A DNA stretch of 64,000 bases from Flavobacteriaceae bacterium YJPT1-3 (GCA_029866965.1 CP123444.1:2087501-2151500), one strand, 5' to 3'; shown: positions 15,838 through 29,290, numbered from the stretch's first letter. The notes: a model not told the origin generated them from the letters alone. Numbers and translations: made by a program.

Positions 15838-15867
15838 AATAATCCTGGAAATTCTTCCAGGATTATT
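15838..15867. terminator. Bidirectional hairpin terminator
   Basis: The arms AATAATCCTGGA (15838-15849) and TCCAGGATTATT (15856-15867) form a perfect 12-bp stem around AATTCT. It lies between the convergent small basic protein gene (+) and the last gene of the envelope operon (-), so it can end both transcripts. Confidence 0.85.
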
Positions 15868-15884: not shown

Positions 15885-16538
15885 TCATTCAAATTCGATC
15901 TCGATGATGATGAAAATTGAGGTGCCGTCTTGTTCAAAAAAGCCAAAGACTTGACCATTGGTATAATCAGAGGCTGGTAAGGCGAAATCGCCAACAGTAC
16001 CGTCTATGTCAGTGGTTCCTATTCGAGCAATGAGATTGGTCACCGGCGTTCCGATAGGAACGGTCATAATGATCTTATCCTCTCCATCGATGATCGTTCC
16101 TTCGATGTCCGTATCCACTGGATTCTCCTCCGCCAAAAAGCGGAAGTAATTTACAATTTCACTTAGAGGACGAGCTGATCGATTTTCTTCTACGGTAACC
16201 GTGTAGTCCGCAGTAGATCCATCTTCTGCGGTAACGGTATAGGTTAGAGGAGCATTAAAATCTTGCGGGCCTTGAGGAGAGTACGAAGCCCGATCAGACA
16301 CCTCAATACTTGGAAATATAAAGGATACCATTGCTCTATGGGGTACCAATAAGGTAATTTCATCCTCATTTATAGTCCCTTCGATATCGATAGGGATTGT
16401 GGAGGGGTTTTCCGCAGCAAGAAATTGGAAAGAAATGATTTCTTTCGAGTCGCTCAGTCGTGCCTTGGTGTTGCTATCATCACTGCTACAGGCTAAGCCT
16501 ACACATAACACAATAAATATATACATCCATTTTTTCAT
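15885..16538 (-). CDS. Lipoprotein with two DUF5018-like beta-sandwich domains
   Basis: The lipoprotein signal peptide ends in VGLACS. Two similar halves follow, each with a stretch like ISFQFLAAENPS or NYFRFLAEENPV and an IDIEGTI or TDIEGTI strand, then VTAEDGSTADYTVTVEE between them. This arrangement resembles the DUF5018 / Ig-like repeats of Bacteroidota surface lipoproteins. Function is unknown; a structural or binding role at the outer membrane is inferred. Start: ATG 16538 gives the signal peptide directly; an upstream ATG at 16562 would add eight residues. Last gene of the eight-gene - strand operon, six bases (to 16562) or 29 bases (to 16538) after the collagen-like lipoprotein gene. 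Confidence 0.72.
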   Translation of the reverse strand: MKKWMYIFIVLCVGLACSSDDSNTKARLSDSKEIISFQFLAAENPSTIPIDIEGTINEDEITLLVPHRAMVSFIFPSIEVSDRASYSPQGPQDFNAPLTYTVTAEDGSTADYTVTVEENRSARPLSEIVNYFRFLAEENPVDTDIEGTIIDGEDKIIMTVPIGTPVTNLIARIGTTDIDGTVGDFALPASDYTNGQVFGFFEQDGTSIFIIIEIEFE

Positions 16539-16567
16539 AAATCGTGTTTTATTTGATGTCATTGGTT

Positions 16568-17215
16568 TTAATATTCTAGTTGGAAATAGTCCATAACCTC
16601 CTCATAATTGGATAGATCAAGACCTTTCTGCTCCAGTACTTTAAGGTGAGAATTTTCTGTACGCTTTCCTGAACTGGTCGAATTGACTTCGATTAGAACA
16701 ATTTTCAGCGTTTGAAGACTACCTGCACTCACGGAAAACGGCGCGTCATCTCGTTTGAATTCCATCCAAAATTGAACACGATTATTAAAATAAGTCATAT
16801 AAGTATTTATGTCTATGGGAATACCGAGAAAGACATACTGATTAGGAATTTGATACCATTCATCTCTGTTAGTTTTGAGATAAGCTAAAATCACACCTGT
16901 TTCTAAAAGTTCGAGCGTTGCTTCGTCAATAGACACTCTGTGATTATTCCCGCTTACGTCGGCGAGATCGTAAAGGATGCTGCGAACATTGGCATTGCCA
17001 TCCGCGCCGTCCTGCCCGTTAGCTCCGTCTTGACCATCGGCTCCATTAGTGCCATCCTGTCCATCAGCACCGTCTTGTCCTGGTGGACCAATTTCACCTT
17101 GTGGTCCTGGAGGGCCAACAGCTCCATCTTCTCCATCTTCTACTGAGCAGGATAATGCGAAGAGTACTCCCACGCTCAATAGAACAAGCTTGATTTTTAA
17201 TAGTCTACGTTTCAT
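16568..17215 (-). CDS. Lipoprotein with a collagen-like Gly-X-Y segment
   Basis: The signal peptide ends at FALSC (Cys23). About sixteen uninterrupted Gly-X-Y triplets follow (residues 28 to about 75), rich in GQD, GAD and GPP. The remaining 140 residues are a globular domain (RSILYDLADVSGNNHRVSI onward, ending YEEVMDYFQLEY) that I do not recognise. Bacterial collagen-like proteins form trimeric stalks on the cell surface, so a surface stalk bearing a C-terminal head is inferred. The gene lies between the OmpA-type lipoprotein and another lipoprotein in the operon; the Asp-rich triplets suggest a charge-stabilised helix. Confidence 0.78.
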   Translation of the reverse strand: MKRRLLKIKLVLLSVGVLFALSCSVEDGEDGAVGPPGPQGEIGPPGQDGADGQDGTNGADGQDGANGQDGADGNANVRSILYDLADVSGNNHRVSIDEATLELLETGVILAYLKTNRDEWYQIPNQYVFLGIPIDINTYMTYFNNRVQFWMEFKRDDAPFSVSAGSLQTLKIVLIEVNSTSSGKRTENSHLKVLEQKGLDLSNYEEVMDYFQLEY

Positions 17216-17250
17216 GATATTTATATTTAACTGGTTAATAAAAGTCTATT

Positions 17251-19014
17251 TTAGAAAGGGGTCACTAGAATTTCAACCCTTCTATTTTTTTGTCGATTTG
17301 ATTCTGTATCGTTTGGAACCAGGGGTTTCGTTTCGCCAAGGCCTACTTCTTTCCACTTTAAACCAGATTGACCTAACGATTTTTTAAGTGCTGTCGCAAC
17401 GCTGGCTGCACGTCGTTTGGATAATGTGAAATTGTTTTGCGCGCTCCCTACATCGTCCGTATGTCCTTCTACCGTGACCGTACCTTTAATGAAATTTTGC
17501 ATTTGAGTGGCCAACTCTTCAACCATGATAATGCCTTCGGGTTTTAACTCGTGTTTACCCGTATCAAAGAGCACAGCACTATCCAGACTTAATCGCAGCG
17601 CTCCCCCTATAGTAGCCACCGCATCGATATCAGCGCCGGGTAGCATACTTTGAGTTTCCAAATCGGTAAAGCGCACGTAATTGAAACTTTGTCCCTGACG
17701 TACAAACGGACCGATATCCACCTGAGCTGTACCCCCGCTGATTTTGCCCACTTCGATCCAATCACTGCCATTCTCTGAAATTTCAAGCCGAGTTGACTCA
17801 ATAACACCTATTTCAAAAACGAAAAGGTCAGGACCATTGACGTCGATAAGCACGTTATCCTTGAACTCGAGTATCAGCACGCCTTTTAACCCCAGATTAC
17901 TCATCTTACTATTGGTGTTTTCGTCGAAATCGGGTTCATTCAAGGCGTCGCTGGCGTTGGCCCCACCACCATTAATTCCTATATAGTGCGAGATTACCCG
18001 GTCGGCAAAGGATAGTGTCCCCAGAGGTAAAAAAACATAGGTTCCTTGATTGGAGAGATAGGTTTCCGATATTCCCTCTTGATCATGAAACCAGTTAGGG
18101 TTGAGGTCATAGAATCGCTGTTCTGCAACTTGTGCTCTTTTGATAAAGGTTGATGCATTATTCACTCTACGCTCCCTTAATCTGTTCATATGAGCCTCGA
18201 AGCTTGGAGTTGCCTTCCCGCCTTTCAGATGTTGTTCAATATTCGGCGAGAGCGGTTCCTTTTTGAACATTTTGGCTTCTGTAGTTGATTGTGGTTTGGC
18301 GAAAGCGGGCGTGGCCTTCATTAAGTGCACTTCTTCTTCAGTGACATCGAATACACGCGCCAGGGTTTCATCATCCACAGCATCTGGATTAAAGGTCATC
18401 TGACGTTCTACCATCATCTTTTCCACAAGATCCCAGAATTCCTCCTTGCGTAATTCATGTTCTATAAAACTAGGTTCCACCAGTCCATCCTCCCTTAAGA
18501 ACTCTTTTGGTATTTTTTTTATCCCTTCTCGAACTGAGATGGTAATTGGATCTTCCGTTTCTTGGGGTTTTCTGAAAATAGAATTGCGTAGTTCTTCAAT
18601 ACTAGCCTTCCCTTCACGCTCCGTTTGTTCTAGAGCAGTTAGGTATTGATCCAACTCCGCCCAATACTGCTTGCCCGCTTCTGAATCCAGTAAGCTTTCC
18701 GCCTTGAGCGATGCCTTTTGCTCACTGTATTCAACGAGTTTATCGATCTCCGCTCCACTCAGGCCATAGTGCATTTGCAAAAGTGGTTTTAGATCATTCA
18801 ATTGGAGATCAAGCTCGGTTTCCAGTTCATAGGTTTCAGTAACATTCGCTGTAGTCTGAGAGGGCTGTTTTGAGGCAGGAAAGGTAGTTGATGTACTTCC
18901 TACCGAATGCACGGTAGATTTCGCAGAAACTTCGTTGACAGATTCTGTACTATGTTCTTGCCCGCACGAGAGCACCAAAAGAGAAATTGTGCAAAAGGTA
19001 AATATTCTAATCAT
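17251..19014 (-). CDS. OmpA-family lipoprotein with peptidoglycan-binding domain
   Basis: The 587-aa protein has a lipoprotein signal (LLVLSCGQ) and a long charged helical region (residues about 65-300). A beta-rich middle domain follows (YVFLPLGTLSFADRVISHY, ESTRLEISENGSDWIEVGK) that looks like a discoidin-type or surface adhesion fold. The C-terminus is an OmpA domain (about 480-587) with VTVEGHTDDVGSAQNN, LSKRRAASVATALKK and NRQKNRRVEI, the residues that bind diaminopimelate in peptidoglycan. It probably ties the outer membrane to the cell wall and may anchor the other envelope proteins encoded beside it. Four bases separate it from the gene before. Confidence 0.85.
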   Translation of the reverse strand: MIRIFTFCTISLLVLSCGQEHSTESVNEVSAKSTVHSVGSTSTTFPASKQPSQTTANVTETYELETELDLQLNDLKPLLQMHYGLSGAEIDKLVEYSEQKASLKAESLLDSEAGKQYWAELDQYLTALEQTEREGKASIEELRNSIFRKPQETEDPITISVREGIKKIPKEFLREDGLVEPSFIEHELRKEEFWDLVEKMMVERQMTFNPDAVDDETLARVFDVTEEEVHLMKATPAFAKPQSTTEAKMFKKEPLSPNIEQHLKGGKATPSFEAHMNRLRERRVNNASTFIKRAQVAEQRFYDLNPNWFHDQEGISETYLSNQGTYVFLPLGTLSFADRVISHYIGINGGGANASDALNEPDFDENTNSKMSNLGLKGVLILEFKDNVLIDVNGPDLFVFEIGVIESTRLEISENGSDWIEVGKISGGTAQVDIGPFVRQGQSFNYVRFTDLETQSMLPGADIDAVATIGGALRLSLDSAVLFDTGKHELKPEGIIMVEELATQMQNFIKGTVTVEGHTDDVGSAQNNFTLSKRRAASVATALKKSLGQSGLKWKEVGLGETKPLVPNDTESNRQKNRRVEILVTPF

Positions 19015-19018
19015 CTCT

Positions 19019-20656
19019 CTATCGTCTATAACGTCCTGTGTGTTGATTGGTGATGGCCAGTGACTGTAAGTAATTCTGGATCCGGACCTTGTCTACGTTA
19101 TACATTTCGAATTCTTCCTCTCTGAGAGCGTCGGGTTGTCCCATTCTCATGGCAGCCTGTTTACATCCATGTATTTCATCAAAAATGGAATCAAGACGGG
19201 TCATAAATTCATTGAATTTGTTTACATAGCTCCGAGCCAGCTCCCTTCTGCTTTGCTGAACCTCTTTTCGAACTTCCGTCCATCCCAATCCAAACCCAGG
19301 AATAGAGGCCATAGCGTCGCCAAAGGCTGTACCATCAGCAGCATAGGTCTCGGCGGTCGTATAGATCGCATTCAGCCGGTGAAAAAGCTGCTCCAGATCA
19401 TTGAGTTTGGTGATCTTTTCTTGGAGACAGGCCATGCATGACTCGATATTTTTGCAATAAATAAGTTCAATGGGTTTATCCCGTGGCGGAGGCAGATTTT
19501 CTCTGTCCTTTTCAGAAAGCAGTGCAACCTTTATCTCAAGATCTCGGATCCGTCTTCTCAAACTGGCTATTTCCTGAGCGCTAATGTCAGGGCGGACCGT
19601 GTTAGAATCCTTATCCGGATCAAATCGTCCTGGCATATCTTCATAATAATTTTCCTCAAATCTTCGTCTTTCCTCCTTCATGGTCCTCCCCATCTCTCTC
19701 GCCTCGTCGGTCCCAGAGATGTCCTTTGCACCATCGGGTACGTTTACGTTTTGGTCATGTCTTTCTTGACTATCTGCATAGCCTAAATCGTAATTTTCTA
19801 TGAATCCTTCATAATCAGTCACAGGAACACCATTCTCTTCAAGTATGAAAACGTCTACTGTATAATTGGAAACCGAAGGTTCAATGTTCTCTGTTTCCAA
19901 AATAAAAACCTGTTCTTGGGCAATTATCGTTTGGCTAGACACCATGCTCATGAGCATGATTAGGATGAAGTTTGTTGATCTCATTTTTTTAAAGTAGAAG
20001 AAGGCACTCAGGGCCAGGATAGCGACCAAAAGCCCTATGACCACATAGAGCATATTGGTATGCTCACTTTTCTCCTTGCCTTTATCCTTGATTAGTGCAT
20101 TTTCTTCCCGTGAAGTTGGTGCGGCTGCCGCTTCGAACTTTTGATCTCCATAAAATGCTCTATATTCATTGATATTGTCAGTTACGCGAATCATTGGAGC
20201 ACTGGAAACCGGAAATTTTTTACCTATCATGATTGAGACTAAGTAGGGCATACCCTCCACGGCAGAAGAAATCCCGATTACAGCCTCACCTTGCGTTCTA
20301 AACAGGTGGTTTACTGCTTTTTTTCCCTTATTCGATAGAACAGAGGCGGGTTCATCTCTGGCATCTCCATAAAAGCTTACATCGAACTTAAATTGTGGAA
20401 ACTTAGTCATAATCGATACATAGACTGGTTCCATAATGTCCAGAGGCTTAATGGTGAACAGTTGGACGGAGTCCTGACCAAGGGTTCGACCTTCTGCAGC
20501 GGCCACCTTCATTCCCTTGTCGTTTCTATTCAGTTTTAAAACGACTGATTTGGGGGCTTGCAATTGCTGCCTGATGTCCTGACCGTACGTGGAGCACTGG
20601 AGGCCCCAATACAGGGCAATGAATAGGACTAAAAAGCTTGAGTTTATCGTTTTCAT
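19019..20656 (-). CDS. Large envelope protein with central membrane hairpin, unknown function
   Basis: The 545-aa protein has a signal peptide (FLVLFIALYWGLQCSTYGQ). A beta-rich exported N-terminal part runs to about residue 180, followed by a charged linker. Two closely spaced hydrophobic segments come next (MLYVVIGLLVAILALSAFFYF and TNFILIMLMSMVSSQTIIAQ), then a second exported-looking region with a coiled coil (SLRRRIRDLEIKVALLSEK) and a Cys pair (CKNIESCMAC). The second hydrophobic segment resembles a fresh signal peptide beginning at a Met, so the gene may be a fusion of two exported proteins. No family recognised. Six bases separate it from the lipoprotein gene before, and two from the OmpA gene after, counting stop to start. 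Confidence 0.7.
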   Translation of the reverse strand: MKTINSSFLVLFIALYWGLQCSTYGQDIRQQLQAPKSVVLKLNRNDKGMKVAAAEGRTLGQDSVQLFTIKPLDIMEPVYVSIMTKFPQFKFDVSFYGDARDEPASVLSNKGKKAVNHLFRTQGEAVIGISSAVEGMPYLVSIMIGKKFPVSSAPMIRVTDNINEYRAFYGDQKFEAAAAPTSREENALIKDKGKEKSEHTNMLYVVIGLLVAILALSAFFYFKKMRSTNFILIMLMSMVSSQTIIAQEQVFILETENIEPSVSNYTVDVFILEENGVPVTDYEGFIENYDLGYADSQERHDQNVNVPDGAKDISGTDEAREMGRTMKEERRRFEENYYEDMPGRFDPDKDSNTVRPDISAQEIASLRRRIRDLEIKVALLSEKDRENLPPPRDKPIELIYCKNIESCMACLQEKITKLNDLEQLFHRLNAIYTTAETYAADGTAFGDAMASIPGFGLGWTEVRKEVQQSRRELARSYVNKFNEFMTRLDSIFDEIHGCKQAAMRMGQPDALREEEFEMYNVDKVRIQNYLQSLAITNQHTGRYRR

Positions 20657-20662
20657 AACTCT

Positions 20663-21295
20663 TTATTTTCTGTGTTTTTTCAGTAGATAATTGGCCAGCA
20701 TGACCATTTTCTGGGTAAGTTCTTGATGTTGTTCAGGAGTACGATCATTATATACCGAACCACTCATCCCGTAGGAGATTAAAAAAGCTTGGTCGTAATT
20801 TTCATTATAAATAAGGACTCTTCCCACATGGGGCTGACGATAGATATAGCTATCCTGAGTATCTGCTAGGCTTATGCCCATACCGAAAAGTTCACTAGGA
20901 GCATCGTCTTCCTTAATCTTAAGCCCTGATTGAATCTCATTCTTATTCGCAGCTTTTGTACTGGGGATAGGCCCCCAAGATAATTGGGCGGGTTCGTTTA
21001 GTTTATTCTTTCCAAAGCCTTGAATTTGATATACACAAAGATTGGCGGTGTTGGTTTGAATTTGGGTAAGCTCGTCCGGACTAACCTCAAGCGCTTGAGC
21101 TAAATTGTCATCGATTATGGGACATTTATAATTCTCAAAAAGCGTAGTGTAATCGCCACTCTTGAGGCTAGAGGTAGTGTTAGGTTTTTGAGGGGCAATC
21201 TCCATTGTTGGATCTGATGTGTCCTTTGATTTGGATTCGGTATTGCATCCCAAAAGAACGGTAAATGCGAAAACAAGGATTGTGATTTTTTTCAT
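20663..21295 (-). CDS. Lipoprotein of unknown function
   Basis: The 210-aa protein has a clear lipoprotein signal (FTVLLGC). The mature part contains a Cys-containing beta-rich domain (YKCPIIDDNLAQALEV, NLCVYQIQGFGKN, GRVLIYNENYDQAFLISYG). Two Cys residues (in YKCP and NLCVY) could form a disulfide. I recognise no family. It is the fourth gene of the envelope operon, nine bases after the DUF4412-type gene and six before the next, so an envelope role with those products is inferred. Confidence 0.7.
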   Translation of the reverse strand: MKKITILVFAFTVLLGCNTESKSKDTSDPTMEIAPQKPNTTSSLKSGDYTTLFENYKCPIIDDNLAQALEVSPDELTQIQTNTANLCVYQIQGFGKNKLNEPAQLSWGPIPSTKAANKNEIQSGLKIKEDDAPSELFGMGISLADTQDSYIYRQPHVGRVLIYNENYDQAFLISYGMSGSVYNDRTPEQHQELTQKMVMLANYLLKKHRK

Positions 21296-21304
21296 GTCTT
21301 AATT

Positions 21305-22105
21305 TTAAAATGTGTTTTTATAATACGCAGTATTGATCTGCAGCGCTATGGTGCCTAGCTCCACACATCGCATCAGCACGCGTTGAGGCTTTCTTTTATT
21401 GGTGATGGTCATGTCCACCTCGAGAGCAAGCCCATCGAAATGATTCATCCATTGAAGATTGATGCCGGACTGTTGTGTTTTATCTTTTTGGAGATTGGCT
21501 AAGCCTTCAGGATGCCCGATATCACTGTCTTCAGTGACCCATACGATTCCGGAATAGTCATCCCCTTGTACGCTGTAGCCAGTACAGGTATATCCTAATA
21601 TTTCTTTTAATTTGTCTAGAGGTTCAATCTTAATCTCTCCCTGAGCTGTAAATTGGGAAATCTCGTTGGGCGAAAACCTCATGCTGGTTCTCGTTTTCTG
21701 ATTTCCAAAATCCATCAAGTTGTGTATAAGATTTTGATTGAGATCAATGATGGAGAAGACTTTTTGATCAGTATCCAACGTAATACGACTTCCTAAGATA
21801 TGATCGTCATCTCCCCAGTATATGGTTGAAAGCAGGGTGTCTTTTTTTTGGACTATTTGCATGGTGTAATAGCTTTTAAAGTGATAGGTGAATTCATCAC
21901 TGTTAGCACTATCGTTAGAATCAGTATCCTCTTTCTTAAAAATATCATCCATCATTTTATTCGTTTTTTTGGAGGCTTCATGTTCTACTTTGCGCTGAAT
22001 GGTTCGTTCTGCTGATTTTAGAGCTTTATTTCCGAGCTTCTTCAGAAACTGTCCGTGACTTGTGCTGAAGGTGAGTATGATCAATAGAGTTACGAGTCTT
22101 TTCAT
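21305..22105 (-). CDS. Exported DUF4412-type protein
   Basis: The 266-aa protein has a signal peptide ending STSHGQ, then a positively charged helix (KKLGNKALKSAERTIQRKVE). The body follows the DUF4412 pattern: YYTMQIVQKKDTLLSTIYWG, LDLNQN-type strands, ILGYTCTGYSVQGDDYSGIVWVTE, and strands near the end (LALEVDMTITNKRKPQRV). DUF4412 proteins are periplasmic or outer-membrane proteins of unknown function common in Bacteroidota. It lies third in the operon, 42 bases after the 109-aa gene. Confidence 0.75.
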   Translation of the reverse strand: MKRLVTLLIILTFSTSHGQFLKKLGNKALKSAERTIQRKVEHEASKKTNKMMDDIFKKEDTDSNDSANSDEFTYHFKSYYTMQIVQKKDTLLSTIYWGDDDHILGSRITLDTDQKVFSIIDLNQNLIHNLMDFGNQKTRTSMRFSPNEISQFTAQGEIKIEPLDKLKEILGYTCTGYSVQGDDYSGIVWVTEDSDIGHPEGLANLQKDKTQQSGINLQWMNHFDGLALEVDMTITNKRKPQRVLMRCVELGTIALQINTAYYKNTF

Positions 22106-22147
22106 GGTTTCAGTTTTTCAGATTGGGTTTTTTGGAGAGGGCTGCTT

Positions 22148-22477
22148 TTATGCTTTTCGCGAGAGCGGCCTTAAGCGAATCTTTTTGTTTGGGATCAGTG
22201 TTTTCAATTCGATCATTTGGTATTGCGCCAAAAGCTCTTGCTTGAAGGCCGTGTTCAAATCAGATTGAATGAGCATTTGTTTATAGTTTTCGAAACCGGC
22301 CATAGGATTTTCTTTAATTTGATCACCACCGAGAACATCTTTCATTACGTCAAATTGAGCGTCTATAAAATTGACCTGTGATGTCGTATCTTTTGCCTTG
22401 GTTATCGGTTTCTGCTGTGCGTGCGCCGCGGATATAAATAGCCATCCTAAAATCAGAAGGATAAGATTTAGCTTCAT
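22148..22477 (-). CDS. Small exported protein of unknown function
   Basis: The 109-aa protein has a classic signal peptide (LILGWLFISAAHAQQ) and a short mature part that looks helical (FDVMKDVLGGDQIKENPMAGF, LLAQYQMIELKTLIPNKK). No family recognised. Its ATG (22475-22477 on the - strand) shares one base with the stop of the 51-aa gene before, so the two are translationally coupled. A near copy of the palindrome motif (GCTTTTCGCGAGAGC) is present at its 3' end. Confidence 0.7.
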   Translation of the reverse strand: MKLNLILLILGWLFISAAHAQQKPITKAKDTTSQVNFIDAQFDVMKDVLGGDQIKENPMAGFENYKQMLIQSDLNTAFKQELLAQYQMIELKTLIPNKKIRLRPLSRKA

Positions 22478-22632
22478 TACTTTTTAAATTTTGTCTTTTT
22501 TAATAATCGTTTTTGGTCCATTATATTCAATTCGTACTGGCCGTCGTCAAGTTGAGTGACATTGAGAAATATTTCATCTGATGGCATCTTGGGGAGTATG
22601 CCCGACAGTTTTTTTCGAGTTTTTTTCTTCAT
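22477..22632 (-). CDS. 51-aa basic protein, first gene of the envelope operon
   Basis: The frame from ATG 22632 to TAA 22477-22479 encodes 51 residues, beginning MKKKTRKKLSGILPKMPSDE and ending RLLKKTKFKK. The TAA overlaps the ATG of the next gene by one base, and a -7 promoter element lies about 40 bases upstream. These are good signs of a real small gene. The product is strongly basic with an acidic middle (NVTQLDDGQYELNIMD). It has no signal peptide, so it is probably cytoplasmic, or a leader peptide for the operon. No family recognised. Confidence 0.68.
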   Translation of the reverse strand: MKKKTRKKLSGILPKMPSDEIFLNVTQLDDGQYELNIMDQKRLLKKTKFKK

Positions 22633-22673
22633 TATCAATAGACAGCGCTGTAGAAGATTCTTTAGGTTGAAGT

Positions 22674-22681
22674 CAAAGCTA
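22674..22681 (-). promoter_or_regulatory. Candidate -7 promoter element (TAnnTTTG) for the envelope operon
   Basis: Read on the - strand this is TAGCTTTG, a full match to the Bacteroidota TAnnTTTG element. It would start transcription near 22667, about 35 bases before the 51-aa gene. No good TTTG -33 box is present at the usual spacing, which is common for promoters that need an activator. Confidence 0.55.
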
Positions 22682-22710
22682 TTGCAGTATCATAGCACTG
22701 CCTAGCACAC

Positions 22711-22741
22711 ATGTAACAAGTGCTTTGTTATATGTAACAAG
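22711..22741. promoter_or_regulatory. Direct-repeat operator, two ATGTAACAAG sites 21 bp apart
   Basis: ATGTAACAAG occurs at 22711-22720 and again at 22732-22741, exactly 21 bp apart (two helical turns). CTTTGTTA between them also makes an inverted partner to the first site. The pair lies about 44 to 74 bases upstream of the predicted start of the envelope operon and directly beyond the 3' end of the AraC-type regulator gene. That is the usual placement and spacing for an AraC-family activator dimer. Confidence 0.55.
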
Positions 22742-22812
22742 CCGACTAATAGACAGTAATACAGGCGGTTAAGAGAAGAAAGAAAGTAGAAGATGATTGC
22801 GCAATGAAAGAA

Positions 22813-25773
22813 TTACGCTCTGAATTCTGAGGGAGCGATACCGAATTGTTCTTTAAAACATTTAGTAAAATGGGAAGGATTATTGAATCCAACGGTATAG
22901 CCAATCTCAGAAATGTTGGCATCCGATTTTTTGAGAAGTTCGGCAGCCAGTTTTACACGTTGACTGCGAATAAATTCTGTTGCTGTTTGGCCTGTAAGGG
23001 CTTTTAATTTTCGATGAAGCTGCATACGACTCATGCCTAAAATGTCTGCGAAAGCAGAGGCGTTAAAGTCAGATTCTACCAATTGATTATTCAGTATTTC
23101 CTGCAGCGTATTCAAAAAGCGCTCGTCGTAAGAATCAATAGAGATTTCTTTTGGCGTTAATATGACTTCCTTGCTGAATCGCTCTTGTAGTTTTTTTCTA
23201 CTCTCCAATAGATTATTCACCGTTTGTTTAAGAATCTTGGGATTAAACGGTTTGGTCAAGTAGGCGTCTGCACCCGTAACAAGTCCTTCCAATCGATTTT
23301 CATCGCCCGATTTAGCGGTGAGCATGATAATGGGAATGTGGGAGGTAGTATCGTGAGTTTTGCAATTTTCAGTCAAAGCCAGCCCATCGTCCTCAGGCAT
23401 CATGAGGTCAGTAATTACGATATCGGGAACATATTTCAAAGCCATCTCAAATCCTAGAAGACCATTTTCGGCAGTTAAAATTTCAAAATCATCGCTAAAA
23501 ATAGTGGACACATAGGTAAGTATATCTAGGTGATCATCAACAATGAGAACAATGGGACGTTCGGAATCCATCTTGTTTTCAGCAGAAGTAAGATTTTGGT
23601 TGTCAACGTTAGGAGTTAGAGCAGGAATTTTCGTCATGATTTGGCCTTGAGACCGCTCTGATAATTCGTCCGTCTGAAATGCCGACTTGCCTACGGGAAG
23701 CCGTATTTCAAATAGTACAGAGTTTGATTTACTTTCAACGCTAATATTCCCTTTGTGCAATTCCACCAATTCTTTGGTCAGCGCCAAACCAATTCCGGTA
23801 CCGGTAGTCTCTTGATGACTGCGGTGGAACCGATTGAAGATTTGAACACGTTGCTCTTTGGAGAGGCTCACCCCTGTATTCTTAATAGACAGCAGTAATA
23901 GCTTATTGCTTATCGATGCATTTAAGTTGATCGTAGCTCCTTGAGGGCTGTATTTAAGCGCGTTACTCAATAGATTAGATACTATTTTTTGTATAATATC
24001 TGGGTCGTACAAAAGATCCTTATCATCTTTGCCGATATGAATATGGAATTGCTGTTTCTTTTGTGCGGCTTGATAAGTAAAAGATGTAGCAATGGTTCTC
24101 AAAAAGGTCGACAAATCTCCAAAGCTCAGGTTCAGGGCGTAGAATCCAGACTCTAATTTAGAGAGATCGAGCAGTTGATCAACGAGAGTTTCTAATCTTT
24201 CCGTGTGATTTTTAGCAATCAACAAGATTTGTTTATCCTTTTCAGACAATTTTTCATTGTCCATTTGTGATTCCAGCGGACCTTTGATCAGGGTGAGGGG
24301 GGTTCGTAGTTCGTGCGAAATATTGGCAAAGAAATTAGATTTTATGGTGTCTAATTCTCTCAGCTTTTTGTTGGTTTTTTGACGATTTCTATAGAGTAGG
24401 AACATAAAGAGTCCTACCATGGAAGTCAATCCAATCCCGCTCATTAATAAGTTGCGTTGACTTTTTCTTTTTTGCTCTGCCAACTCATTTTGAGACTTTA
24501 AAATTGCTATTTGTTGTTCTTTCTTCTCCGTCTGGTATTTAGCCTCAATTTCTGTAGTAATCTTTTCTTTGTTCATCAGCTCTAGGCTATCTTTTAAAAT
24601 CAGTAGTCTTTCACTGATTTGGAAAGCCTTTTCATAATTGCCAAGTCCTTTGTAGGCATCTTTTAGGGCTTCTGAAATTTCTTTTCTTTCTCTTAAATAA
24701 TAATCAGTCCCTTTGGAAGGGGCAAAGGCTTGTGCCTCATTTAGATAGAAAACAGCTTGCTCGAAATTTTTGTTTTTCAGATAGAAATAGCCGGCAGCAT
24801 AGTACATTTCATTTTTACCAACTCGGCTAAAGTCTTCCGGTGCGACTATAGCTAAGCCTTTGTTTAAATAGCTTTCTGCTGAATCAAATTGAAGTAAGTT
24901 GGTGTGGGCTAATACCAATTCGGAGTAGACTTCTGCCAGTTTATTGGGATCTTTGAATGACTCATAAAAGGGTAAGACCTGCTCATAGTATTGAATCGCC
25001 TTTTCAAAATTCCCTTGTTTATTTTGATAGTTTCCTTTTAGACGTAGGCTATTATTTTCTCCTGCCTTATTTCCCAATTCACGATGTACTGAGATACTTT
25101 TATCAAGATACTCCAGCGTTTGCTTACTTTTTAGTTCGGAATAAATTAGTGAAATATTCTCATAAGCCAGAGACAAATTTGAGGTGATCCCGTTATTGGC
25201 ATTATGGGTAGAATCTACTTTCAAGTAATATTCCAGTGCTCTTGAGTAATCATTTTTCTGAAAGTGAACATTGCCTAAAACGACCAATGAAGAGGCTATC
25301 AGCTCCCAGTTGCCTGATTTTTTAGCTTCTTCCAGGGCAAGTTTGCTGTACGCTTCGTAATTATCAAAATCAATATTTATTCTGCTAAGAATGGCGAGTT
25401 TTCGATAGGTGTCTGAGACCAGCCTATGATCATCACTATCCTTAAGGAGGTCTAAAGTTTTCTCTACCAATAGCAAGCAACTATCCATTTGAGAGTTGTA
25501 GAAATAATAGGTGGACGCGAGGTTATAGGCCTGGATCGAAATACTATCTACGGATGTGTTCCGTGCCAGCTTCAGTAGTTTATCATTGTAAACCTTGGTA
25601 GAATCCATACTGATCTGGAGGTAATTACGGATCAATAGATTTAGGTTTTCAAATTTCTGAGCGTCAGTGTTGGAAACCTGATATGCAGTTCTTATAGAAT
25701 CGAGATTCACGACGTTTTGCGCTCTTAGGCTCAACGAAGAAATAATGATTATTAGACCTATAATTAATTTCAT
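22813..25773 (-). CDS. Hybrid two-component regulator: TPR sensor, histidine kinase, receiver, AraC-type HTH
   Basis: The 986-aa protein joins sensing, phosphorelay and DNA binding. Parts in order: signal peptide (MKLIIGLIIIISSLSLRAQ), TPR repeats in the periplasm (about residues 50-400), membrane segment 441-462, histidine-kinase dimerisation motif ANISHELRTP (His487), ATPase domain (LLSNALKYSP, GTGIGLALTKELVELH), receiver domain (VLIVDDHLDIL, phospho-acceptor Asp789 in VITDLMMP) and a C-terminal AraC domain (GFNNPSHFTKCFKEQFG). ATG 25773 is chosen because it starts the signal peptide directly; an ATG at 25821 adds 16 residues. Most regulators of this type in glycan loci have propeller sensors; TPR sensors are a different branch. 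It probably controls the envelope operon directly downstream. Confidence 0.92.
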   Translation of the reverse strand: MKLIIGLIIIISSLSLRAQNVVNLDSIRTAYQVSNTDAQKFENLNLLIRNYLQISMDSTKVYNDKLLKLARNTSVDSISIQAYNLASTYYFYNSQMDSCLLLVEKTLDLLKDSDDHRLVSDTYRKLAILSRINIDFDNYEAYSKLALEEAKKSGNWELIASSLVVLGNVHFQKNDYSRALEYYLKVDSTHNANNGITSNLSLAYENISLIYSELKSKQTLEYLDKSISVHRELGNKAGENNSLRLKGNYQNKQGNFEKAIQYYEQVLPFYESFKDPNKLAEVYSELVLAHTNLLQFDSAESYLNKGLAIVAPEDFSRVGKNEMYYAAGYFYLKNKNFEQAVFYLNEAQAFAPSKGTDYYLRERKEISEALKDAYKGLGNYEKAFQISERLLILKDSLELMNKEKITTEIEAKYQTEKKEQQIAILKSQNELAEQKRKSQRNLLMSGIGLTSMVGLFMFLLYRNRQKTNKKLRELDTIKSNFFANISHELRTPLTLIKGPLESQMDNEKLSEKDKQILLIAKNHTERLETLVDQLLDLSKLESGFYALNLSFGDLSTFLRTIATSFTYQAAQKKQQFHIHIGKDDKDLLYDPDIIQKIVSNLLSNALKYSPQGATINLNASISNKLLLLSIKNTGVSLSKEQRVQIFNRFHRSHQETTGTGIGLALTKELVELHKGNISVESKSNSVLFEIRLPVGKSAFQTDELSERSQGQIMTKIPALTPNVDNQNLTSAENKMDSERPIVLIVDDHLDILTYVSTIFSDDFEILTAENGLLGFEMALKYVPDIVITDLMMPEDDGLALTENCKTHDTTSHIPIIMLTAKSGDENRLEGLVTGADAYLTKPFNPKILKQTVNNLLESRKKLQERFSKEVILTPKEISIDSYDERFLNTLQEILNNQLVESDFNASAFADILGMSRMQLHRKLKALTGQTATEFIRSQRVKLAAELLKKSDANISEIGYTVGFNNPSHFTKCFKEQFGIAPSEFRA

Positions 25774-26037
25774 AGACCATACAGCTGATGACGGTACAAC
25801 GGGTTTGAATCCAGCGTTCATGTTCTCTCAAGTTAACTGTATCTATACAAAAATTAAGGTATGCATTTCTATATCAATCTATTAGGGTTTGGAAAAATAT
25901 AATAATTCGAATAAAAGCAAACAATTAAAAGCATTGGAGCGTAAAATTGTCTTGAGCATTATGGTTTAAGGCCTCGGTTTTATCAGCTTATGAAACTATC
26001 GTAATTCACAATGGACAGGGGTGCTAGCACTTTTTAG

Positions 26038-26991: not shown

Positions 26992-28785
26992 CTAATTATT
27001 TACGAAATACATTTTGAGACGACCTCTGTTTTTTACTTCTATCTCTCCCCGGTACTCACAATTCCAGTCCTTTTTAATAAGGGCGTAGGTGGTTTCACTG
27101 ATGTTTATTTTACCGGGCGCCGACATGGATTCCATTCGGGAAGCGACATTCACCGTATCTCCCCAAATGTCGTAAGCGAATTTCTTGGTGCCTACCACTC
27201 CGGCCACCACGGGACCGGAGTTGATCCCAATACGTACGTCAAAGGTCATTTTATTATCCTGACTTCCTTTTTTGGTAGCTTTGACAAATTCGGCTATCTC
27301 AAAGGCCGCCTCCAGCATTTTATCAGCGTGATTATTCTTAAGGGAGTGGATTCCTCCCGCACACATATAGGCGTCACCAATGGTCTTGATTTTTTCCAGG
27401 CCGTGCTTTTCGATGATCTCATCAAAGGCGGAAAAATAGAAACTTACCGTTTTGACCAGCTCTTCGGGAGATAGGCCTTCCGAATAACTGGTAAACCCTT
27501 TAAAATCGGTAAATAGAACCGTGGTGCTTTCGTATTTCTTAGCACTGACCTTTCCGGTCATTTTCAATTCTTCAGCAGTTTCTTCGGGAAGGATGTTGAG
27601 CAGCAGGGTATCAGAACGATCCCGTTCTGCCTCAATAATTTTTTTGGTTTTTCTAATGAACTGATTTCTTCGGTAGAGTCCGATGGAGAAAATCCCGACA
27701 GCAAGCAATCCCAATGCCGTGGCAATGGTCACGATGCGCTGATTTTTTCGTTTTTGTTCTAATAGGTCGACCTCAATTTGCTTTTGGGATACTTCAAATT
27801 CCGTACGTTGGTCTGCCATTTGCTGAACGACTTCGATATTCTTAACACTATCCCGGTAGGCAATGTGTGACTTATAATGATCAAAAGCAATAAGGGGATT
27901 CTCGTTTTGTTCGTGGAGCTCCGCCAGCTTCAAGTGGGCTTCGCTCATTTGATTCTTCAGTCCGTGTCTGGTAGCAAGATCTAAGCTTTTTTCCGCATAA
28001 TTGAGGGCTAATGGGAACTTGTTTTTACGGGCATAAATGTCCGACATGTAGGTCAGGTATACCGAGATACCGTAATAGTCTTCCAACTCTTCCAACAGCC
28101 TAACGGCCTGGTTGATATTTGCTTCGGCCAATTCATCCTGGCGTTGTTCTGCGTACACCATACCTATGTTTCCCAGATTGTAAGCTTTACCAATGGTATA
28201 ATCAAGCTGATCAAAAAGTTCTCCGGATTCTTTAAAGTAGGTCAACGCCTGAGTATAGTCTCCAGCATTAAACGCTTCATCTCCAGCATTGAACAAGGCT
28301 TTGGACAGTGGAGCTGGATCATCGTTTTTGCGCAGCAGTTCAATTCCTTCGGCGTAATACTTATTGGCATTGACTGAATTTCCTATTTCTGAATATAGAT
28401 TAGCGATCGCAATGGTAGCATTCCCTGCTCCCCTATCATATTGGATCTGTTTGGACAGGCGCAGACTTTCAAAGTAAGCTTCTAACGCTTGCTCCACTTC
28501 TCCACTGAGATGCAAAGCGTTTCCTTTTTGAAGATACCCGCTAAGGAGCATTTGATCCTGGTTGTCTTTGGTTGCTTTTTCAATAAGCTTGATGGCATAT
28601 TCCTCCTTAGTGATGGGATTGGTCTCTTGCACAGCAATAGCTTTGAGTAGTTCCAGCTCATTGCCTTTATAAGAACCGGATTGATGTTGGGCGATAAGAC
28701 TATCGGCTAATTTCTGATTTTGAGCAAAACTAGTATTGAGAAGAACGAAGCATAGAAAGAAGCAGAAAAAGAGGGAGTAGCGCAT
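26992..28785 (-). CDS. Membrane TPR protein with class III adenylate cyclase domain
   Basis: The 597-aa protein has a signal peptide (MRYSLFFCFFLCFVLLNTSFAQ), periplasmic TPR repeats (residues about 60-330), one membrane segment (351-371), a short coiled linker ending in LLLNILPEETAEEL, and a C-terminal class III cyclase domain. Catalytic residues are complete: metal Asp427 (LFTDFKGF) and Asp471 (GDAYM), base-selecting Lys467 and Asp539 (YDIWGD), Asn546 and Arg550 (NVASRM). The Lys/Asp pair predicts ATP as substrate, giving cAMP. ATG 28785 is chosen because it opens the signal peptide; an upstream start would overlap the preceding gene. Followed by a Pycsar-type effector gene. Confidence 0.9.
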   Translation of the reverse strand: MRYSLFFCFFLCFVLLNTSFAQNQKLADSLIAQHQSGSYKGNELELLKAIAVQETNPITKEEYAIKLIEKATKDNQDQMLLSGYLQKGNALHLSGEVEQALEAYFESLRLSKQIQYDRGAGNATIAIANLYSEIGNSVNANKYYAEGIELLRKNDDPAPLSKALFNAGDEAFNAGDYTQALTYFKESGELFDQLDYTIGKAYNLGNIGMVYAEQRQDELAEANINQAVRLLEELEDYYGISVYLTYMSDIYARKNKFPLALNYAEKSLDLATRHGLKNQMSEAHLKLAELHEQNENPLIAFDHYKSHIAYRDSVKNIEVVQQMADQRTEFEVSQKQIEVDLLEQKRKNQRIVTIATALGLLAVGIFSIGLYRRNQFIRKTKKIIEAERDRSDTLLLNILPEETAEELKMTGKVSAKKYESTTVLFTDFKGFTSYSEGLSPEELVKTVSFYFSAFDEIIEKHGLEKIKTIGDAYMCAGGIHSLKNNHADKMLEAAFEIAEFVKATKKGSQDNKMTFDVRIGINSGPVVAGVVGTKKFAYDIWGDTVNVASRMESMSAPGKINISETTYALIKKDWNCEYRGEIEVKNRGRLKMYFVNN

Positions 28786-28810
28786 GAATCTATAGCTTAA
28801 ACCATGGAGC

Positions 28811-29290
28811 CTAATTAGAAGATGAACGATATTCAAAATAGCGTGAATTTCCATCATCTCTGTTCGGCAGATATTGAAAACCCAAAAACCGTAACCAGGT
28901 GAATACATGGGGATGCCTGGACGAAGAAAAAATACCGATGCTACAACCCGGGTAGTATTGCGCGTATACTTTTAAGGTTTTACGCATTTGGAAACTGATC
29001 TTTAGAGCGTGTTCTTCATAAAGGTCACTACAAACCAGGAAAGTGGTGTATTTGGTTTTAGCAACCGGATAACATCCCAGAATGGCTATGGGTAGCGCCT
29101 TTTCATCTCTCCAAATCTTCGAGTAACCACCTTCTTCGGTGAGCGTCAGTAGTTCTTGTATATAATGGAACATACTCTCTTTACTGTTCTCATCTCCAAG
29201 ACGCCATTCCATTGCTGAGATACTCCAGGGATTAGCCAGAATATACCGAAGATCGACTTCTGGAATAATGTCCGTTGACAATGCTTTCAT
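28811..29290 (-). CDS. Possible GNAT-fold acetyltransferase-like protein
   Basis: About 159 residues from ATG 29290 (MKALSTDIIPEVDLRYILA); ATG 29314 and GTG 29341 are possible longer starts. The pattern ALPIAILGCYPV followed by a strand (YTTFLVCSDLYEEH), a helix (SFQMRKTLKVYAQYYPG) and FTWLRFLGFQYLP recalls GNAT folds seen in some phage and bacterial proteins, but no acetyl-CoA motif (Q/RxxGxG/A) is clear. Function is uncertain. The stop lies 25 bases before the cyclase gene on the same strand, so it may share its transcript. Confidence 0.5.
   Translation of the reverse strand: MKALSTDIIPEVDLRYILANPWSISAMEWRLGDENSKESMFHYIQELLTLTEEGGYSKIWRDEKALPIAILGCYPVAKTKYTTFLVCSDLYEEHALKISFQMRKTLKVYAQYYPGCSIGIFSSSRHPHVFTWLRFLGFQYLPNRDDGNSRYFEYRSSSN

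Follow-up and report, generated by a model that had tools for sequence, protein, structure and literature searches.

The window analyzed here is a 64,000-nucleotide stretch of the genome of Flavobacteriaceae bacterium YJPT1-3. On its minus strand, from 22638 to 15885, lie eight open reading frames (g1 to g8) with intergenic gaps of -1 to 42 bp, which we take as an operon. They adjoin a gene for a hybrid two-component regulator (HTCS), REG, and the gap between REG and g1 contains a repeated sequence motif and a putative promoter element. The features are as follows:

22813-25773, minus strand: REG, HTCS of 986 aa counted from an internal ATG, assigned by Pfam and by orthologs in the same position in related loci.
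22732-22739, minus strand: predicted distal operator half-site TGTTACAT, sole perfect match in the genome and conserved across gaps.
22711-22718, minus strand: predicted proximal operator half-site TGTTACAT, 21 bp from the distal one, with a conserved ATAG extension into the -33 region.
22674-22681, minus strand: -7 element TAGCTTTG (TAnnTTTG), at an offset of 37 nt counted from where the proximal half-site begins, with no -33 TTG box.
22477-22632, minus strand: g1, 51-aa basic miniprotein without a signal peptide, HTCS-linked and weakly resembling the C-terminal strands of the T9SS sorting domain.
22148-22477, minus strand: g2, 109-aa secreted protein with no family found; its gene has a 1-base overlap with the g1 stop.
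21305-22105, minus strand: g3, secreted DUF4412 protein (24.6 bits, cut-off 21.6) with a charged helical N-terminus and orthologs in loci L015 and L024.
20663-21295, minus strand: g4, lipoprotein with no Pfam family.
19019-20656, minus strand: g5, N-terminal jelly-roll beta domain, transmembrane (TM) hairpin, and C-terminal helical domain with conserved cysteines.
17251-19014, minus strand: g6, lipoprotein with a helical region, a conserved beta-sandwich domain, and a C-terminal OmpA peptidoglycan-binding domain.
16568-17215, minus strand: g7, collagen-like lipoprotein (Pfam Collagen).
15885-16562, minus strand: g8, lipoprotein with a weak DUF5018 match under the curated Pfam cut-off.
15840-15865, minus strand: terminator-like hairpin TAATCCTGGAA-GAAT-TTCCAGGATTA followed by TTTT, found by eye and missed by the terminator scan.

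The terminator scan and a scan for sigma-70 promoters of the E. coli type performed on a par with shuffled sequence and were disregarded.

REG consists, in order, of a signal peptide, periplasmic TPRs, a TM segment, and HisKA, HATPase, receiver, and AraC-type HTH domains (Pfam families TPR, HisKA, HATPase_c, Response_reg, and HTH_18); the presence of the last four in one polypeptide behind an N-terminal sensor identifies it as an HTCS. The longest REG ORF begins at 25821, and the internal ATG at 25773 lies directly at the signal peptide. A tblastn search of plasmids with REG gave generic kinase matches only. Upstream of REG lies a gene (26992-28908) for a TPR protein with a TM segment and, as read from the sequence, a class III nucleotide cyclase domain. 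A polysaccharide utilization locus is recognized by a SusC/SusD pair or carbohydrate-active enzymes among its regulated genes; neither a SusC/SusD pair, nor carbohydrate-active enzymes, nor any other glycan-utilization family was found in this one by Pfam. An earlier model-generated description of the window (the sequence-only reading) had proposed a TPR-type hybrid regulator beside an eight-gene envelope operon devoid of glycan genes, and both points are borne out by the ORFs, the HTCS domain order, and the absence of glycan-related Pfam families. The OmpA-type, collagen-like, DUF4412-type, and membrane-hairpin proteins that it listed correspond to g6, g7, g3, and g5, respectively (identified by Pfam and, for the hairpin, by two predicted TM helices).

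The product of g6 has an invariant Cys17 and an OmpA domain scoring 63.2 bits (cut-off 27.2); in its structural model (pLDDT 78) this domain matches the peptidoglycan-binding domain of TagL with a Z of 19.4 and an rmsd of 1.5 over 114 residues. It thus resembles the OmpA/Pal-type peptidoglycan-binding lipoproteins in its lipoprotein signal and C-terminal OmpA domain, but adds the helical region and the strongly conserved beta-sandwich, which no Pfam model covers, and its gene usually adjoins g5. OmpA-domain matches crowded the results of fold searches with g6. The beta-sandwich plus OmpA architecture also occurs in Gammaproteobacteria, Rhodobacter, Variovorax, and an acidobacterial MAG (L093-L104).

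The two predicted TM helices of g5 are adjacent (residues 200-224 and 227-249; mean pLDDT of the model 70). Foldseek matched only the jelly-roll shape, in binding domains of unrelated proteins among others, at 11-18% identity; this is a common fold, and the matches were rejected as a guide to function. Runella, a Chitinophagales MAG, and Ferruginibacter have two separate genes in place of g5 (L075:8392-9551, L087:1017-2301, and L088:8213-9437), and the product of the second carries a signal peptide. This arrangement suggests a signal-peptide origin for the second TM helix of fused g5. The g6 protein and its partner look like anchoring parts of the periplasm or outer membrane rather than a proven external structure, and it is plausible that the operon products form an assembly joining inner membrane, wall, and outer membrane; that they make up one surface structure, as the sequence-only reading suggested, is a possibility.

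The gap between REG and g1 carries CTTGTTACAT in two copies 21 bp apart. The 10-mer ATGTAACAAG is found at 22711-22720 and 22732-22741 (21 bp start to start) and nowhere else in the 3.16-Mb genome; the reversed control has six scattered matches. The -7 element fits the Bacteroidota sigma-A consensus TAnnTTTG, mapped in a flavobacterium at -12 to -5 (PMC9723704), and inspection of 22682-22710 revealed no TTG-type -33 box, which is consistent with activator dependence. Placing TAnnTTTG at -12 to -5 gives a predicted start near 22669 and half-sites at about -42 to -70. The sequence-only reading had described the same -7 element without a -33 box and the same two direct repeats spaced 21 bp, at a similar position (about -44 to -74), and had assigned them to an AraC-type activator; conservation across genomes and fixed geometry agree with this, the repeats being a conserved predicted operator suitably placed for such a protein. 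Within this gap alone, an identical 10-mer pair at a spacing of 12-40 was obtained in 57 of 5000 dinucleotide shuffles (~1%). The repeat in a single gap is only moderately surprising, and it is the comparative evidence that we judge decisive against chance.

Related loci supplied 35 gaps between REG and g1, 30 of them non-redundant. A TGTTACAT pair at 21 bp with at least 14 of 16 matches is found in 31 of the 35, compared with at most 6 for any other spacing from 12 to 40, and the 21-bp repeat is present in 27 of the 30 non-redundant gaps (shuffle mean 0.007); three Flagellimonas-type loci have a spacing of 22 bp. In 29 gaps, the offset of the TAnnTTTG box, counted from where the proximal repeat begins, is exactly 37 nt; any other offset is seen in at most two, a regularity independent of the repeat selection. 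Half-sites occur in the variants TGTTACAT and TGAAACAT; the operator consensus, TGTTACAtatgTcATAGc..TTGTTACAT...T.aTA, indicates a further conserved element, ATAG, in each half-site, and with it the proximal half-site extends to the -33 region. Of the 54 HTCSs in the fetched loci, 52 have the operator box beside them and two lack it; the box had itself been the reason for picking some of these loci. The paired site recurs with its exact spacing beside regulators of this kind in dozens of flavobacteria of marine origin, and g1 usually comes next. In Maribacter and Winogradskyella, more operator-like sites lie 3' of the main operon (L053:12270, L059:16112, L064:13558, and L079:14797), suggesting multi-operon regulons in these genera. 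With a promoter code of the form TGTTACAT-N13-TGTTACAT followed by TAnnTTTG at a fixed distance, regulons should be predictable from sequence.

The genome-wide scans were pattern searches. When the whole host genome was scanned for both half-sites plus the -7 box, with up to three mismatches allowed, exactly two sites were found (reversed control, 0): the one in the window and one at G000:C1:1931041. The latter is located 3' of a gene for a 947-aa TPR-type HTCS, a REG paralog (47% identical), and is followed by a g1 paralog, a 424-aa OmpA-domain protein, and two more secreted proteins; no recognized glycan genes were found in this second cassette. A third HTCS-like gene of the host genome has no such operator, so two of the three HTCS-like loci have the box, both with g1. 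The second cassette spans G000:C1:1928169-1934120 (L189:6170-12120), and the N-terminal helix of its OmpA-domain protein resembles that of g3. Another genome (G442:C11) has three tandem HTCS-box-g1 cassettes (L190 and L191), one with a g7-like collagen-like lipoprotein. At L153, L158, L159, and L169, boxes lie 5' of operons for S74-peptidase/YadA-head and similar repetitive secreted proteins; these may be fiber-type surface proteins under the same control.

A family search with g5, with inspection of the stretches around the matches, revealed that the order REG-g1-(g3)-g4-g5-g6 is largely kept in the window and in six other genera, g3 or g4 being absent in some; g1-(g3)-g4-g5-g6 is the constant part of the operon, and g7 and g8 are variable. 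An earlier scan of named genomes with the g6 sequence alone found no relatives; a scan with an alignment of the g6 middle domain identified 80 loci, mainly in Flavobacteriaceae (Maribacter, Winogradskyella, Muricauda/Flagellimonas, Croceitalea, Galbibacter, Cellulophaga, and Yeosuana), with a few in Saprospiraceae and others. Among the loci where a g5-type gene adjoins the g6 domain and the sequence extends more than 7 kb upstream, an HTCS is present upstream in 31 and absent in 10, and where it is absent the box is almost always missing too. An operon occurring mostly without its regulator, the outcome that the sequence-only reading had named as refuting its proposal, is therefore not what was observed. 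Outside Flavobacteriaceae (Runella, Ferruginibacter, and Rheinheimera), g5-g6 occurs without an HTCS; outside Bacteroidota, the g6 domain mostly occurs alone, or g5-g6 occurs without the regulator (Rheinheimera, L104). These occurrences and the ten g5 loci indicate that the cargo does not depend on the regulator everywhere. A literature search for this gene set found no description of it, which does not in itself prove that none exists.

Our favored explanation, which we hold to be probable, is that the HTCS REG activates the envelope operon via the TGTTACAT pair and that the cassette is reused in Flavobacteriaceae; its regulatory interpretation is strongly supported by the comparative evidence. 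Domain order, operator conservation, fixed geometry, and g1-HTCS linkage were read from the sequence; beyond these we infer phosphorelay, DNA binding, activation, operon transcription, and envelope location. The TPR domain of transmembrane REG would read a periplasmic signal, upon which HisKA would pass phosphate to the receiver domain. The AraC domain would then bind as a pair to the two half-sites, which at 21 bp, or two helical turns, apart would lie on the same DNA face. Because the proximal half-site with its ATAG extension occupies the site of the missing -33 box, activator bound there may substitute for that contact and recruit sigma-A polymerase to the TAnnTTTG box, amounting to class II activation. 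The operon, whose first gene encodes the HTCS-linked g1 miniprotein, would then be switched on, and its other genes would build envelope or surface parts anchored to peptidoglycan (through g6) and to membranes. Across the family, this cassette appears to have been reused with different cargos and even with different sensors.

Two other explanations were weighed. The repeats might bind another factor, since a box 3' of a regulator gene could serve another AraC protein, or REG might repress or only autoregulate, the neighborhood reflecting genome organization and not cognate control. However, box and HTCS go together nearly one to one (even allowing that some of the loci were chosen by the box), the two box-bearing HTCS-like loci among the three of the host genome both have g1, and the lack of a -33 box and the constant 37-nt offset are as expected for activation; we regard this explanation as improbable. 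It is highly improbable that this is a conventional glycan-utilization HTCS locus with its enzymes lost or not yet matched and the envelope genes as incidental passengers: HTCSs are best known from polysaccharide loci, with which the 21-bp direct-repeat operator is shared (PMC3878776), and some box-linked regulators have the Reg_prop sensor typical of glycan HTCSs, but the operon is without SusC/SusD or a glycoside hydrolase, its non-glycan core recurs 3' of orthologous regulators in many genera, and the second cassette of the genome is also OmpA-type without recognized glycan genes.

Members of the g1 family are ~50 aa long and basic (median pI 10), with no hydrophobic N-terminus and with four residues invariant across diverse genera. 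The gene is under purifying selection (pN 0.08 and pS 0.58 for 32 close pairs, pN being lowered by the choice of pairs with 75% protein identity or more). A profile was built from 33 copies, and a search with g1 alone found the family in 63 of 299 family genomes. We pooled 75 distinct g1 genes, most from the profile search and a few from earlier loci, seven of the latter fetched by the box: 71 are downstream of an HTCS, 67 downstream of a box, and 64 downstream of both, eight having no box by the criterion used; in the control, a box is found at 11 of 588 ORF starts. A class-wide sample gave strong matches in three genomes only (six genes, all in HTCS cassettes). The miniprotein follows TPR-type and Reg_prop-type HTCSs alike, its cassettes carry OmpA proteins, DUF4412 proteins, collagen-like lipoproteins, or S74-peptidase/YadA-head proteins, and in some (L191 and L017) it is not the first gene 3' of the box. 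This linkage to HTCS and box, whatever the sensor type or cargo, points to a class of HTCS cassette comprising sensor, operator, miniprotein, and envelope or surface cargo. The sequence-only reading, right about regulator, operon, and operator, had missed this hallmark role of g1, as it had the second cassette and the published 21-bp HTCS geometry.

Por_Secre_tail (PF18962), the T9SS sorting domain, is matched by 27 of the 33 g1 proteins (best E 3.9e-5; the member inspected scores under the curated cut-off), over profile positions 43-69 of 75, the C-terminal half only; the window's own copy gave no match. Weak class-wide matches of the g1 profile are located at the very C-terminal ends of long secreted proteins, the position that sorting domains occupy. 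DUF3244 and Y_Y_Y, the latter a sensor domain of HTCSs, match g1 proteins too. It is likely that g1 is homologous to the sorting domain, whose last strands it resembles; a generic Ig-type hairpin is a possible alternative. The sorting domain is a cargo tail, whereas g1 is free-standing, has no signal peptide, and is encoded beside a regulator; it does not have the full domain at the end of a signal-peptide protein that marks T9SS cargo.

A role on the HTCS is favored because the only constant partners of g1 are the HTCS and its promoter; that it works on the HTCS from the cytoplasm, as a feedback or coupling factor, is a guess. We tentatively suggest that g1 may represent a new class of HTCS-dedicated accessory protein, free-standing and sorting-domain-like, through which family-wide HTCS switches for envelope and surface cargo, not glycan uptake, would receive feedback or be coupled to secretion status. 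Alternatively, g1 could be related to the T9SS as an adaptor or decoy: a fragment of sorting domain in the cytoplasm that adjusts surface-cargo export and not the HTCS. The Por_Secre_tail matches and the C-terminal position of the class-wide matches would fit this, and the host genome encodes T9SS cargo and SprA, but g1 scores under the Pfam gathering score, the DUF3244 and Y_Y_Y matches make a generic Ig-type hairpin possible, a signal peptide is lacking, and the cargo of many cassettes is lipoprotein or OmpA, not T9SS; we consider an adaptor or decoy rather unlikely. A translated leader for operon expression, without protein function, is very doubtful. It is true that g1 is short, comes first, and overlaps the next gene in the window, but the gene is under strong purifying selection, four residues do not vary among the diverse genera, and it is not first 3' of the box in L191 and L017. 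The conserved, unnamed miniprotein family tied to these HTCSs raises the question of whether these regulators have a small partner protein.

AraC-family class II activators bind two direct half-sites 21 bp apart, the proximal one at the -35 region. The half-site geometry described here is the same; the AraC domain, however, is fused to a membrane sensor kinase, and the promoter is of the Bacteroidota -7 type. In Bacteroides thetaiotaomicron, 16 HTCS regulators of polysaccharide loci have predicted direct-repeat operators averaging 21 bp (Ravcheev 2013, PMC3878776). As in those systems, sensor, histidine kinase, receiver, and AraC domains are combined in one protein, the regulator adjoins its targets, and a direct repeat of ~21 bp lies upstream of the neighboring operon. 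The Bacteroides HTCSs have SusC/D and glycoside hydrolase targets, whereas the system described here has a TPR sensor and envelope, OmpA, or fiber-like cargo; unlike theirs, its TGTTACAT half-sites are common to many regulators and genera, and it includes a dedicated miniprotein gene. The 21-bp HTCS operator geometry is already known; new here are the non-glycan envelope cargo, the promoter code shared across the family, and the HTCS-linked miniprotein. HTCSs have been treated almost entirely as glycan sensors; in marine flavobacteria, position and operator assign to a large and conserved group of them the control of genes for envelope and surface.
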